Source: Sediminibacterium sp. C3
Lineage (GTDB): Bacteria > Bacteroidota > Bacteroidia > Chitinophagales > Chitinophagaceae
NCBI RefSeq assembly: GCF_000508085.1
Contig: NZ_KI669560.1
Span: forward strand, 2,008,709 to 2,072,708
Direction of reading: 5' to 3'
DNA length: 64,000 nucleotides
This document shows, one piece after another, positions 1,388 to 5,339 of this stretch; the first letter of the stretch is position 1, and the number at the start of each line of letters is the position of its first letter. The translations under genes and the position numbers were made by a program. A model generated the notes under the pieces. That model was not told the origin of the DNA. It did no database searches and saw nothing but the letters and a program-made list of their open reading frames with translations.

Positions 1388-1443
1388 AGTAACTGTTTTG
1401 AATTCCCCCCTCTTTGTCTGTTAAATGTCATTTGTACAACAAT

Positions 1444-1463
1444 AAAGGTATTTAAATACTTTT
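1444..1463 (+). promoter_or_regulatory. 20-bp near-perfect palindrome, candidate NsrR/Rrf2 operator
   Basis: AAAGGTATTTAAATACTTTT is an inverted repeat with nine of ten half-site pairs complementary. The ATTTAAAT core with flanking AT-rich arms resembles the known NsrR operator type. It stands upstream of an operon whose last gene is an Rrf2-family regulator with three conserved cysteines, so autoregulation is a reasonable inference. Confidence 0.5.
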
Positions 1464-1479
1464 ATTGTTCAAAAACAAT
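1464..1479 (+). promoter_or_regulatory. 16-bp palindrome, candidate CRP/FNR-type site
   Basis: ATTGTT-CAAA-AACAAT has perfect 6-bp arms around a 4-nt spacer, the geometry of CRP/FNR-family sites. It directly abuts the 20-bp palindrome on the left and touches the -7 element on the right, so a bound protein would cover the promoter core. The identity of the regulator is unknown. Confidence 0.4.
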
Positions 1480-1486
1480 ACCTTTG
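1479..1486 (+). promoter_or_regulatory. -7 element of the Ric operon
   Basis: TACCTTTG matches the Bacteroidota -7 consensus TAnnTTTG exactly. Transcription would begin near 1493, which argues against the TTG start at 1484 and for the ATG at 1517. Confidence 0.6.
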
Positions 1487-1516: not shown

Positions 1517-2497
1517 ATGTATCCAGAAACAGAAAATATTTTAGATGTAACAGTATTGGAACCCAAACAAAAGCATCCAACCATATTTGTCAGGTTTGAT
1601 ATGCTTGAACCGGGGGAACACTTAACCATTCACAATGATCATGATCCTAAACCTTTGTACTATCAGTTATTGGGAGAAAGAGGAAATGTATTTATATGGG
1701 AGTATCTAGAAGAAGGCCCTGAATGGTGGAAGGTTAAAATTACCAGAAGAGATGAAGGCGCAACCGAAGAGTCAGTAGGTCAGCTGGCTGCCAATGATAT
1801 CCGCAAAGCACAGATATTTAAAAAATACGGAATCGACTTTTGTTGTGGAGGGAAAAAATCGGTTAAGGAAGCATGTAAAGCCAAGGGGATTGATGTTACA
1901 AAAGTAGAAAAGGAATTACAGGATGCTGATAAGAATAAAGCTGCCAATTTGGGTTCAAGACCTATTGATTTTACTAAATGGAACCTAGATTTTCTGATTG
2001 ATTATATTGTGAATACACACCATAATTATGTAAAAACCAGTTTGCCAGAAATCATTGGTTTCTCTGAAAAAGTATTCAGGGTTCATGGAAAAAGGCACGA
2101 GGAATTGTTTCAGATTAATGAACTTATAAAAGCAATTAATGCTGAATTGACCTCGCATTTATTAAAGGAAGAGAAAGTGCTGTTTCCTTATATAAAGAAA
2201 CTGGTTTCTCAGCAAAATGAAGAAATACAGCCCTTCTCCGAAAATTTTGGATCGGTGCAAAGTCCTATTGCTATGATGGAGATGGAGCATGAAGAAGTTG
2301 GGAATCATTTAGCAACGATTAGATCACTTACCAAAAACTATTTATTACCTGCTGATGCCTGCAATAGTTATGGAATTCTGTACAAATTCCTTGAGGAATT
2401 TGAAGAAGATCTGCACATGCATATTCACTTGGAGAATAATATTTTATTTCCCAAAGCATTGGATTTGGAGTCCAAACTAAAACAGGATCAATGCTAA
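1517..2497 (+). CDS. ric: iron-sulfur cluster repair di-iron protein Ric/ScdA/YtfE with N-terminal DUF2249 domain
   Basis: 326 residues. Residues about 8-77 form a DUF2249 domain. Residues about 86-133 are the ScdA N-terminal (DUF542) domain with the paired Cys109-Cys110 (DFCCGG). Residues about 155-315 are a hemerythrin-like helical bundle with His/Glu ligands (H168/H169, H194, H214, E218, H258, H300, H304). Ric proteins repair Fe-S clusters damaged by nitric oxide or oxidants in the cytoplasm. ATG 1517 is preferred because the in-frame TTG at 1484 overlaps the promoter. The gene overlaps the next by 7 nt, indicating translational coupling. The DUF2249 fusion is an addition to the usual 220-residue Ric. 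Confidence 0.9.
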   Translation: MYPETENILDVTVLEPKQKHPTIFVRFDMLEPGEHLTIHNDHDPKPLYYQLLGERGNVFIWEYLEEGPEWWKVKITRRDEGATEESVGQLAANDIRKAQIFKKYGIDFCCGGKKSVKEACKAKGIDVTKVEKELQDADKNKAANLGSRPIDFTKWNLDFLIDYIVNTHHNYVKTSLPEIIGFSEKVFRVHGKRHEELFQINELIKAINAELTSHLLKEEKVLFPYIKKLVSQQNEEIQPFSENFGSVQSPIAMMEMEHEEVGNHLATIRSLTKNYLLPADACNSYGILYKFLEEFEEDLHMHIHLENNILFPKALDLESKLKQDQC

Positions 2498-3291
2498 TTA
2501 ATGCCAATACCAGATTGTCTGTTATTTTAAAAGAGAGGCCGGATGCGCTGGAAGCCATTGTTAGTATTTCTCCCAAGTTTCAGAAACTTAGAAATCCAAT
2601 CTTGAGAAAAATAATGGCTTCCAGGACTACTATACAGATGGCCGCAAGTATTGGGAACTGCAGGGTTGAAGACTTTTATTTGCAATTGTCGGCCTTTGGT
2701 TTTCAGTCGGTAAATAATGACAACACAAATGAGCCTGCTGAGTCCAGGCCTTTGTACATGCAATCCATTGGAAACTATGAGATAATTGATTTTGATGTTA
2801 GGCCCATACTGGAACAGGGTAATGATCCTCTTAAATCTATAATGAATAAGATAATAGAGATTCAATCTACTCAGGTTCTTAGGATTATCAACAGTTTTAG
2901 GCCTACCCCACTGATGCAATTACTATCTGATAAAGGATTTGAATCTTATGCAGAAAGAATAGCGGATGATGTATTTCATATCTATTTTCACCAAGCCGAA
3001 AAAGCAAATGCCCCTATATTTAAAGAGTACGAGGAGTCAGTAGAATCGTGGGACAAAGTATGGGATGAGTTTCAAAATAATTTAGTGGAAATTGACGTGA
3101 GAAATTTGGAAATGCCAGGCCCGATGGAAGCAATTCTCTCTGCTTTGCAAACACTTGAAAAAGGGAAAGCTTTATATGTATACCATAAACGGGTTCCGCT
3201 ATATTTATTACCTGAATTGGCTGAAATGAGTTTTAGGGTTTCTATTAATAAGCTCTCTGAATCTGATATACGTTTGTTAATTTATAAATGA
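2491..3291 (+). CDS. DUF1858 + DUF2249 protein of the nitrosative-stress operon
   Basis: 266 residues. The first 60 or so (LSVILKERPDALEAIVSISP...) look like a DUF1858 helical domain. Two DUF2249-like units follow, the first at about residues 95-165 (IDFDVRPI...) and the second at about residues 198-266 (IDVRNLEMPGPME...). DUF2249 is a small SirA-like alpha/beta fold found beside Ric and nitric-oxide-related genes; its biochemical role is unsettled. No signal peptide is seen, so it is probably cytoplasmic. The start overlaps the end of ric, and the following gene begins 4 nt after the stop. Confidence 0.75.
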   Translation: MLINANTRLSVILKERPDALEAIVSISPKFQKLRNPILRKIMASRTTIQMAASIGNCRVEDFYLQLSAFGFQSVNNDNTNEPAESRPLYMQSIGNYEIIDFDVRPILEQGNDPLKSIMNKIIEIQSTQVLRIINSFRPTPLMQLLSDKGFESYAERIADDVFHIYFHQAEKANAPIFKEYEESVESWDKVWDEFQNNLVEIDVRNLEMPGPMEAILSALQTLEKGKALYVYHKRVPLYLLPELAEMSFRVSINKLSESDIRLLIYK

Positions 3292-3295
3292 ATAA

Positions 3296-4600
3296 ATGTC
3301 TGTAGTTAATCATACTCCACTTACTAAAACAACTCACTGGAAAGTAGTGATTCCTTTCTATGGTTATGGTGCTATTGCACTTTTGGTAAGTACAGTACTG
3401 CTTCTTTTATCTGCGAATAACTTACTGAATCATTATTTTTCCCCCGGTAATCTTGCTATTACACATTTGATGGCACTTGGATGGGGCACTATGATGATTT
3501 TAGGAGCGAGTCATCAGTTGATTCCCGTTTTAATTGAATCTGAATTATATAGTATTAAACTGGCAATGGTAACATTTTTGCTTGCAGGGATTGGTATTCC
3601 TTTATTGGTAGTTGGATTTTACGAGTTTAATATGGGAGCTCCTGCTAAATGGGGCGGAAGATTGATTGTTCTATCGGTAATAGTTTATCTATATAATTTG
3701 TATAAAAGTATTAAGAACAGCCAAAAGGAAAATGTACACGTCCTTTTTTTGTTTACAGCAACCGCCTGGTTGCTGGTTACCTCTGCTTTAGGCCTCATGC
3801 TGGTTTATAATTTTTCCTTTCCCTTATTTCAAAAGAATTCGGTTGATTATTTACCCTTGCATGCACATGTTGGAATTGTTGGATGGTTCCTGCTGACCAT
3901 TATTGGGGTTGGATCAAAGCTGATTCCCATGTTTTTGATTTCAAAATACTTCAATAGCAACCTGCTTTGGCGTATTTATGGGTTAATCAATACCGGACTA
4001 ATACTGTTTGTTTTACTTTTTTTGTATTCAGAATCCTTGCTCTACTTATTTATTCCCGTTGTATGTATTTTTTCGGGAATTGTGTTGTTTATTATTTATT
4101 GTTATAAATCATATAAACAAAGGATAAAGTTGAAAGTAGATGAACCCATGAAAATTTCTTTGGTTGCCATTCTGCTTAATTTATTTCCCGTTTTATTTCT
4201 AATTATCATAATAGTTCATGCTACATTTACCAATACCGTTAGTTTTTCAGTAGTAATGGGATACGGATTTGTCATTTTCTTTGGTTGGATTACAGCAATC
4301 ATTTTTGGAATGACATTTAAAACACTGCCATTTATTGTCTGGAACAAAGTATTTCAATATAAGAATCAAATAACTGTAACAATAAATCCCAAAGACCTGT
4401 ATAGTAAGTTAATTTACAAATGGATGATATTTTTTTACTGGACGGGTTTTTCAATTTTCTTAATAGGATTATTGATGAATAATGTCTTACTGATTTCTTA
4501 TGGAGCTGGTTTATTGGTTATAGCTGCGCTGTTTTATGGTTGGAATATTATACGTCTAATTCTTTTTAAAGCACCTCTTGATGAATATAATAACCAATAA
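3296..4600 (+). CDS. multi-spanning membrane protein with heme-copper-oxidase/NnrS-like histidine motifs
   Basis: 434 residues, about 12 predicted membrane helices. Conserved-looking histidines sit in membrane segments: THLMALGWGTMM, SHQLIPV and LPLHAHVGIVGWF. These resemble the subunit-I-like proteins and NnrS family members that accompany nitric-oxide genes. The complete set of heme-copper oxidase ligands is not obvious, so nitric oxide reductase activity cannot be claimed. NnrS is a heme-containing membrane protein that relieves nitrosative stress, and the operon context fits that role. The gene sits tightly between the DUF2249 and DUF59 genes. Confidence 0.65.
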   Translation: MSVVNHTPLTKTTHWKVVIPFYGYGAIALLVSTVLLLLSANNLLNHYFSPGNLAITHLMALGWGTMMILGASHQLIPVLIESELYSIKLAMVTFLLAGIGIPLLVVGFYEFNMGAPAKWGGRLIVLSVIVYLYNLYKSIKNSQKENVHVLFLFTATAWLLVTSALGLMLVYNFSFPLFQKNSVDYLPLHAHVGIVGWFLLTIIGVGSKLIPMFLISKYFNSNLLWRIYGLINTGLILFVLLFLYSESLLYLFIPVVCIFSGIVLFIIYCYKSYKQRIKLKVDEPMKISLVAILLNLFPVLFLIIIIVHATFTNTVSFSVVMGYGFVIFFGWITAIIFGMTFKTLPFIVWNKVFQYKNQITVTINPKDLYSKLIYKWMIFFYWTGFSIFLIGLLMNNVLLISYGAGLLVIAALFYGWNIIRLILFKAPLDEYNNQ

Positions 4601-4907
4601 CAATGCCATGTGTTCCTTCGCAATTGATGTTTTGCGTAGCGTAGAAGATCCTGAAATTGGCTTAAATATTATTGATTTGGGATTGGTTTATCAGATTGAT
4701 TTTGATGAAGAGAGCAAAAAGATATTTTGTACCATGACGCTCACTACCCAGTTTTGTCCAATGGGGGAATCTATATTGAATACAGTTAAGCTTTCTTTGG
4801 AAAAGTTTTTTTCAGACTTTACAGCTGAAGTATATTTAACCTTTGAACCTTCCTGGAATAGTGATCGAATCAGTGAGATGGGTAGAATATTTTTAAATAG
4901 AAAATAG
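4581..4907 (+). CDS. MIP18/DUF59 family (SufT/PaaD-like) protein
   Basis: About 108 residues. The DPEIGLNIIDLGLVY motif and the TTQFCPMGESI segment with its conserved cysteine are typical of the MIP18/DUF59 family, which helps assemble or deliver Fe-S clusters. The first ATG (4581) overlaps the upstream gene by 20 nt. A second in-frame ATG at 4608, just after the upstream stop, would give a shorter protein beginning MCSFAIDV and is equally possible. Its place in the Ric operon suggests a role in Fe-S cluster recovery after nitric-oxide damage (inference). Confidence 0.8.
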   Translation: MNIITNNNAMCSFAIDVLRSVEDPEIGLNIIDLGLVYQIDFDEESKKIFCTMTLTTQFCPMGESILNTVKLSLEKFFSDFTAEVYLTFEPSWNSDRISEMGRIFLNRK

Positions 4908-5339
4908 ATGTTAAGTATTACCTGCAAAACTGCTATCAAAGCCACTATTTATCTGGCTTCAAAATTAGACTCAGAACAAAAAGCAAGTATTAAAGAAATT
5001 GCTGAATACATAGATGCCAGTGAGCATACGGTTGGGAAAATGTTGCAGACACTGGTTAAAGAGAATATTATCAAGAGTGCCAAGGGACCATCTGGCGGTT
5101 TTTATATTACAGCCAATCAAACCCAGTTGTCAGTTTTGAAAATTGTGCTTGCTATTGATGGTGAAGATCGGTTCAATGAATGTGGGCTTGGCCTGAGCAA
5201 ATGCTCCTCAACTCACCCCTGCCCTATTCACAATGATTATAAAATAGTCAGGGATGGATTTAAAAAGATTTGTGTTCAGAATAAAATTGCAGATTTATGC
5301 GTCCCCTTTAATAAAGGCATCGCATTTTTAATGGGTTGA
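4908..5339 (+). CDS. Rrf2 family transcriptional regulator, NsrR-like
   Basis: 143 residues. An N-terminal winged helix-turn-helix (residues about 1-75, with ASIKEIAEYIDASEHTVGKMLQTL and GPSGGF) is followed by a loop holding three cysteines, ECGLGLSKC...HPCPIH (Cys92, Cys98, Cys104). This matches the Fe-S cluster ligands of the NsrR/IscR type. NsrR senses nitric oxide through its cluster. The ATG begins right after the stop of the upstream gene, so it is the last gene of the operon and probably autoregulates it through the palindrome at 1444-1463 (inference). Its 3' end overlaps the convergent sulfatase gene by 12 nt. Confidence 0.85.
   Translation: MLSITCKTAIKATIYLASKLDSEQKASIKEIAEYIDASEHTVGKMLQTLVKENIIKSAKGPSGGFYITANQTQLSVLKIVLAIDGEDRFNECGLGLSKCSSTHPCPIHNDYKIVRDGFKKICVQNKIADLCVPFNKGIAFLMG

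Follow-up and report, generated by a model that had tools for sequence, protein, structure and literature searches.

The promoter of an operon that begins with ric, the gene for an iron-sulphur cluster repair di-iron protein, raises the question of how many regulators read it and which they are. It lies in a 64-kb window (64,000 nucleotides, the whole stretch of DNA that was analysed) from a genome of the Chitinophagaceae near Sediminibacterium salmoneum, represented here by locus L174, whose Rrf2 protein is 95% identical to that of the window. The original prediction placed an NsrR-like palindrome and a CRP/FNR-like palindrome side by side in front of a -7 box and proposed dual control by NO and by oxygen or redox state. 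The genes of the operon are closely packed between 1517 and 5339, and the divergent gene encodes a glutamate-synthase-domain protein. The features are listed below by position in the window.

1438..1469, no strand: operator palindrome as extended in the window's genome, 32 bp, 15/16 pairs
1441..1466, no strand: predicted Rrf2 operator core AATAAAgGTATTTAAATACTTTTATT (type A), 26-bp palindrome, 12/13 pairs
1464..1479, no strand: CRP/FNR-like palindrome of the original prediction, not conserved, taken as fortuitous
1479..1486, + strand: -7 box TACCTTTG, assigned by sequence, published register, and conserved spacing
1517..2497, + strand: ric, iron-sulphur cluster repair di-iron protein with DUF2249, ScdA_N, and hemerythrin domains (all three by Pfam; TIGR03652 over cut-off)
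2491..3291, + strand: DUF1858 + DUF2249 protein (domain search)
3296..4600, + strand: membrane protein with multiple spans, remotely similar to haem-copper oxidase subunit I / NnrS (Pfam matches of orthologues)
4608..4907, + strand: FeS_assembly_P (DUF59/MIP18-type) protein (start taken to be 4608; family search run from 4602)
4908..5339, + strand: Rrf2 protein, clade A, with helix ASEHTVGK, C92-x6-C99-x5-C105-x2-H108, and K7 (PF02082 over cut-off)

The last gene of the operon was confirmed to encode an Rrf2 protein, which scored 75.8 bits against PF02082 (cut-off 30). The three cysteines ascribed to it were found as the triad C92-x6-C99-x5-C105, but the protein has six in total (6, 92, 99, 105, 122, and 131). 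For the membrane protein at 3296..4600 no Pfam match was obtained up to E 0.001; among eight orthologues scanned, four match COX1 (best E 6.8e-08) and one matches NnrS (E 2.2e-04), and a search of solved structures for a haem-copper or NnrS identity gave no match up to E 0.01. At loci L059-L064, L068, L070, and L078, extra DUF2249-like repeats stand before the repair domain, so that ric is matched in two or three pieces, and the operator lies approximately 330-590 bp before the matched ric start.

Both predicted palindromes are present in the letters. The 20-bp palindrome AAAGGTATTTAAATACTTTT at 1444-1463 pairs at 9 of 10 positions, although it is the inner part of a 26-bp palindrome rather than a separate unit, and ATTGTTCAAAAACAAT at 1464-1479 is a 6-4-6 palindrome with perfect arms. 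Counted separately, neither stands out in 64 kb of such composition. Palindromes of 20 bp with at least 9/10 pairs occur six times in the window, against a mean of 3.2 and a largest count of 9 in 200 dinucleotide shuffles, and perfect 6-4-6 palindromes occur 32 times, against 24.7 in dinucleotide shuffles. The 271-bp intergenic region holds two of the latter, at 1328 and 1464; when this region was shuffled 2000 times, at least one appeared in 14% of the cases. The longer palindromes at 1441-1466 (26 bp) and 1438-1469 (32 bp) each occur once in the window, where 0.08 and 0.01, respectively, were expected from dinucleotide shuffles. The outer right arm ATTGTT (1464-1469) pairs with AACAAT (1438-1443); the border drawn at 1463/1464 cuts through this palindrome, and the 16-bp CRP/FNR-like palindrome takes its left arm, ATTGTT, from the operator's outer arm. 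There is one operator upstream of the ric operon, not two sites. Its conserved form, taken from the sites of relatives, is AATAAAAGTA-N6-TACTTTTATT, and the pairs beyond 26 bp are mostly unconserved (none or one extra in 44 of 61 distinct sequences). A terminator hairpin was looked for and none was found; moreover, the inner bases of the palindrome are non-complementary in many relatives.

The -7 box TACCTTTG stands exactly where it had been placed, at 1479-1486, and matches the house-keeping -7 box of Bacteroidota; TAnnTTTG follows the operator within 24 bp in 54 of the 61 distinct sequences. With the published register of this box at -12 to -5 (PMC9723704), transcription would start at approximately 1491 and the operator would cover approximately -50 to -25. 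The -33 place of the ric promoter carries no TTTG. The positions after the -7 box are weakly conserved in relatives (an A/T-rich stretch, up to 0.99 bits), and AAGTATTCAATCACTT at 1487-1502, directly behind the box, resembles half an operator with three mismatches to the core and was considered as a possible second operator.

The proposal that an NsrR-like repressor on 1444-1463 and a separate CRP/FNR-type protein on 1464-1479 together confer dual control draws on the perfect 6-4-6 palindrome adjoining the -7 box and on the CRP/FNR-type proteins encoded in the genome (three HTH_Crp_2 and four cNMP_binding places over cut-off). Against it, the second site is at background level in relatives and broken in the nearest of them. 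At the placement seen in the window, three or fewer mismatches in 12 positions were found in 1 of 66 named loci (L174, two mismatches), against 13 of 528 control placements, and the corresponding stretch in L174, the nearest named relative, is ATTGTTcaaaAAGTAT: the operator there is perfect and the second arm reads AAGTAT. Across the ric loci the pattern has no mismatch only in the window, three in 3 sites, and four to seven in 46. Places with three or fewer mismatches make up approximately 1.9% of the background and 3/49, or 6%, of the sites other than that of the window, a slight excess caused by shifted placements that take their left arm from the TTTATT of the operator itself. Of the two predicted motifs, only the Rrf2-type operator is conserved in front of the orthologous operon. 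The genome-wide search suggested for both motifs likewise returned a single good match for the operator; the CRP/FNR-like pattern has its sole exact copy in the window and lies at 48 places with at most one mismatch, against 23 for the reversed control. Further points against the two-regulator model are that 6-4-6 palindromes are not enriched, that the left arm of the site belongs to the Rrf2 operator, that the 13 bp separating the operator from the -7 box are poorly conserved, and that a CRP/FNR-like site would sit at approximately -28 to -12, on the promoter itself. CRP/FNR control of the ric operon, conceivable in principle given the CRP/FNR-type proteins of the genome, is thus not supported, no conserved site being present here, and dual NO and oxygen/redox control is the most improbable of the explanations considered. 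Correcting that proposal spares experimenters the pursuit of a nonexistent site.

Conservation of the remaining operator was followed in samples of 294 genomes from a larger family and 395 genomes from a larger phylum. Two forms of the core were distinguished. Type A, AAAAGTA, is found before ric operons that end in a clade-A Rrf2 gene, and type B, AAAAGA[C/T/G], immediately precedes clade-B rrf2 genes and also stands in front of ric in other lineages, a globin gene, nos-kind c-type cytochrome genes, and others; the genes other than ric and rrf2 were identified by reading the sequences. Exact AATAAAAG-N10-CTTTTATT sites, 73 in number, occur in 60 of the 294 family genomes (reversed control, 17), and exact sites occur in 22 of the 395 genomes of the phylum sample, where the AAAAGTA...TACTTTT core (or its TG variant) is confined to the window's family and type-B cores also occur in other families. 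A generic B-like pattern tried on L172 matched at chance level.

A ric match at E up to 1e-40 was obtained in 172 of the 294 family genomes. Among 90 ric loci, 49 carry the operator (at most two mismatches, at least 20 symmetric positions, within 900 bp upstream), and 50 distinct type-A sites were kept from the same loci using the type-A consensus (at most three mismatches, 650 bp). TAnnTTTG or a near form follows these 50 sites at 11-15 bp in 37 (exactly 13 bp in 20) and at 3-5 bp in 4, and is lacking in 9; the bases in between are poorly conserved. A second scan, anchored on Rrf2 and run on named genome contigs with the clade-A alignment, confirmed 161 loci; among the 80 of these that were compared, 66 have the type-A operator (at most two mismatches), with TAnnTTTG at 11-15 bp in 53, at 3 bp in 3, and nowhere within the scanned span in 10. 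Of the 14 loci without the operator, 13 are cut by a contig end that falls within the operon or no more than 75 bp upstream of ric. Locus L248 is a genuine exception: it has a clade-A Rrf2 gene with nnrS-like and DUF59 genes, but its 12.4 kb contain no ric gene and no type-A site (at most two mismatches). The ric-anchored and Rrf2-anchored counts overlap, some of the sampled genomes being the same contigs as named loci. Conservation of the operator columns is partly circular, since resemblance to the consensus was the criterion for picking sites; neither the -7 spacing nor the Rrf2-anchored search depends on that criterion. In one genome of the sample (G279), a cupin gene (L143:3426-3704, - strand) on a contig other than that of ric has the operator, a 12-bp spacer, and TACCTTTG upstream, and looks like a type-A target in trans. 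At L145, a type-A site with one mismatch is followed by a DUF488-like gene and genes for membrane proteins.

The window's own genome has the operator at one place with one mismatch; the other two of the three places found with up to three mismatches have three each, and the reversed control gave nine. The 16-bp core AAGTATTTAAATACTT, tried as a genome-wide motif, gave little signal (79 places with at most three mismatches, against 65 in the reversed control). The information of the operator is carried by its outer arms, AATAAAAG...CTTTTATT, not by the 16-bp core. Three Rrf2 places exceed the Pfam cut-off in this genome, namely that of the window, a clade-B gene in a norC-norB-rrf2 operon, and one split over two reading frames. 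This last place (G000:C4:2411875-2412271; loci L165, L166, and L170) consists of pieces of 51 and 89 aa and is either frameshifted or an assembly error. The norC promoter (L169:10384-10409) carries, directly before norC, a degenerate type-B-like palindrome, ATTAAAGATATTTTTGTCCTTAATTA, with the box TATTTTTG inside it; this palindrome was spotted by eye, the pattern scan at up to three mismatches having missed it. From the distribution of its sites, the clade-A Rrf2 of the window's genome is predicted to be a one-operon, self-controlled regulator.

The two operator cores follow the two clades of the regulator. An operator could be assigned to 53 of 72 distinct Rrf2 proteins; all 22 with an xHT recognition helix have type A, all 30 with an F/Y helix have type B, without cross-over (22:0 and 30:0), and one protein of unclassified helix has type B. 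The other 19 have no scored operator in the locus DNA compared, and four of these are T-helix proteins: L054, L057, and L058, whose sites are weaker, together with L164, which is the window's own protein in a short locus that excludes the promoter. In a tree of 71 Rrf2 proteins, from which one of fewer than 130 residues was excluded and in which the window's protein was labelled type A by hand for the same reason of its short locus, each operator type needs one change, and the split is supported at 98/94. The match between helix and operator falls on this one split and therefore represents one evolutionary event, not many. Among the 59 ric loci of L050-L109 that could be scored, having enough upstream DNA, 21 have both a T-helix Rrf2 gene and a type-A operator, 35 have neither, 3 have an operator without Rrf2, and none has Rrf2 without an operator. 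The three are L083 and L086, where Rrf2 is missing from the locus DNA compared (L086 is cut by the contig end), and L074, whose site is probably spurious. The Fisher values (3.7e-15 and 3.9e-13) overstate the evidence, the related sequences not being independent.

One conserved palindrome thus occupies a fixed place before the -7 box, is linked to clade-A Rrf2, and has a core that matches the recognition helix. Such a pattern would also be expected if the palindrome belonged to another, unlinked regulator and had merely been inherited with the operon, for linkage within one operon can give correlation without binding, and the helix-operator match is carried by a single tree split. That explanation is very improbable, given that two related operators follow two Rrf2 clades across different gene contexts, that rrf2B genes standing alone lie directly behind their own operator, and that the long-branched Rrf2 protein of L092, 41% identical to that of the window and with helix ANEHTTGK, keeps the type-A core. 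Judged from these comparisons, the operator at 1441-1466 is very probably that of the operon's own Rrf2 protein, the product of its last gene. The broader expectation of the original prediction, that the promoter of this NO and Fe-S-damage operon, which ends in an Rrf2 gene, is overlapped by an Rrf2-type operator, has held.

The ric operon is probably controlled by an autoregulated, NO-labile Fe-S repressor, the clade-A Rrf2 protein, acting on 1441-1466 at approximately -50 to -25. We infer physical binding, a bound cluster, NO as the signal, and repression in preference to activation. A cluster-loaded Rrf2 dimer would sit over approximately -50 to -25, covering the place of the -33 element, and would keep RNA polymerase off the -7 box TACCTTTG. 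NO, or other damage, would destroy the Fe-S cluster and the protein would let go; the repair operon would then be made, and newly made Rrf2 would close the loop. The sister clade-B protein in the norC-norB operon would act through a related operator of its own. An activator could likewise use a palindrome centred near -37, in which case the dimer would replace the missing -33 element in a class II arrangement and its apo or nitrosylated form would recruit polymerase. The lack of TTTG at the -33 place, the constant spacing of most sites (mode 13 bp), and the activation of suf by IscR from type 2 sites (PMC5411485) are consistent with this, yet the norC promoter of the same genome holds its -7 box inside the operator, and at some promoters 2-5 bp separate the operator from the -7 box, a poor fit for an activator. 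Repression is favoured for these two reasons, the variation in spacing (3-5 bp in 4 of 50) fits steric blocking, and activation is considered unlikely.

The repressor proposed here most likely works like NsrR or IscR, and by the tests made it is a member of neither. The protein of the window scored 28.9 bits against the NsrR model NF008240 (cut-off 182) and 42.2 bits against the IscR model TIGR02010 (cut-off 207.55). Like NsrR of Escherichia coli and Streptomyces coelicolor, it is an Rrf2 protein with three cysteines; in several bacteria NsrR is the repressor of ric/ytfE and of further NO genes (PMC9268430), and in S. coelicolor it is autoregulated (PMC4861436). The clade-A operator differs from the NsrR consensus gATGyAT-N5-ATrCATc (PMC1274295). 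In the alignment to S. coelicolor NsrR, C92, C99, and C105 fall on its three cysteines, and H108, three residues after the third cysteine, falls on an arginine. Residue 7, placed beside the aligned pair of NsrR residue 9 and query residue 8, stands at the position of Asp8, which with the three cysteines ligates the NsrR cluster (PMC5411485). This residue is lysine in 22 and glutamine in 4 of 26 clade-A proteins, and glutamate in 44 of 45 classed clade-B proteins. The D8A variant of S. coelicolor NsrR stayed NO-sensitive, so that NO sensing is still compatible with the loss of Asp8 (PMC5411485). The label 'NsrR-like' therefore suits the role, which the gene content fits, but not membership, the operator departing from the NsrR consensus and the ligand pattern being IscR-like.

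The pattern C-x6-C-x5-C-x2-H was found in 71 of 72 Rrf2 proteins from both clades and in every one of 77 clade-A proteins from the named loci (3 of the 80 were excluded). Its third cysteine and the histidine after x2 correspond to Cys104 and His107 of [2Fe-2S] IscR from E. coli, whose ligands are Cys92, Cys98, Cys104, and His107 (PMC5411485), whereas the first spacing differs from the C-x5-C-x5-C-x2-H of IscR, and the clade-A gene is not beside isc or suf. The closest solved structure by sequence is that of RsrR, the [2Fe-2S] redox sensor of Streptomyces venezuelae (6y45; E 1.6e-09 with the clade-A profile), which also recognizes a long inverted repeat, 11-3-11 (PMC5015018); unlike the clade-A protein, with its predicted NO and Fe-S repair targets, RsrR targets NAD(P)H and glutamine genes, and the residues around the cluster differ in the aligned sequence. 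Rrf2 genes next to clade II nosZ on metagenome scaffolds of Flavobacteria type (PMC6264515) are probably clade B, since genes for nos-kind c-type cytochromes stand behind type-B operators at L152 and L155 by sequence reading; the text consulted reports the genes and no operator. HcpR is an NO regulator from the same phylum, Bacteroidota (PMC13370916), but it belongs to the CRP/FNR family and uses another site. A literature search by title and abstract found no description of the operator or of a Bacteroidota Rrf2 NO regulon, which is weak evidence of absence, subscription papers lying mostly outside the search.

Few NO regulators of Bacteroidota have been studied well, HcpR being an example from the literature (PMC13370916), and the analysis supplies a concrete predicted operator, regulator, and target list that are directly testable. 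A natural paralogue pair whose operator core and recognition helix have changed in step is useful for studies of how Rrf2 proteins choose their DNA. For the family as a whole, a tentative interpretation, put forward as a possibility, is that NO defence in the Chitinophagaceae has been divided between a pair of paralogous Fe-S Rrf2 regulators. These would share a 26-bp operator differing by an insulating two-base change, AAAAGTA for the repair operon and AAAAGA[C/T/G] for NO removal (norCB, the globin gene, and nos-type genes, which adjoin clade-B rrf2 as ric does in some loci), read by a changed helix (EHTVGK versus PxHFxAK). In the repair branch, the lysine or glutamine at the NsrR Asp8 position and the IscR-like histidine would mean that the cluster is ligated differently, and the signal for this regulator might be Fe-S damage and not NO as such.
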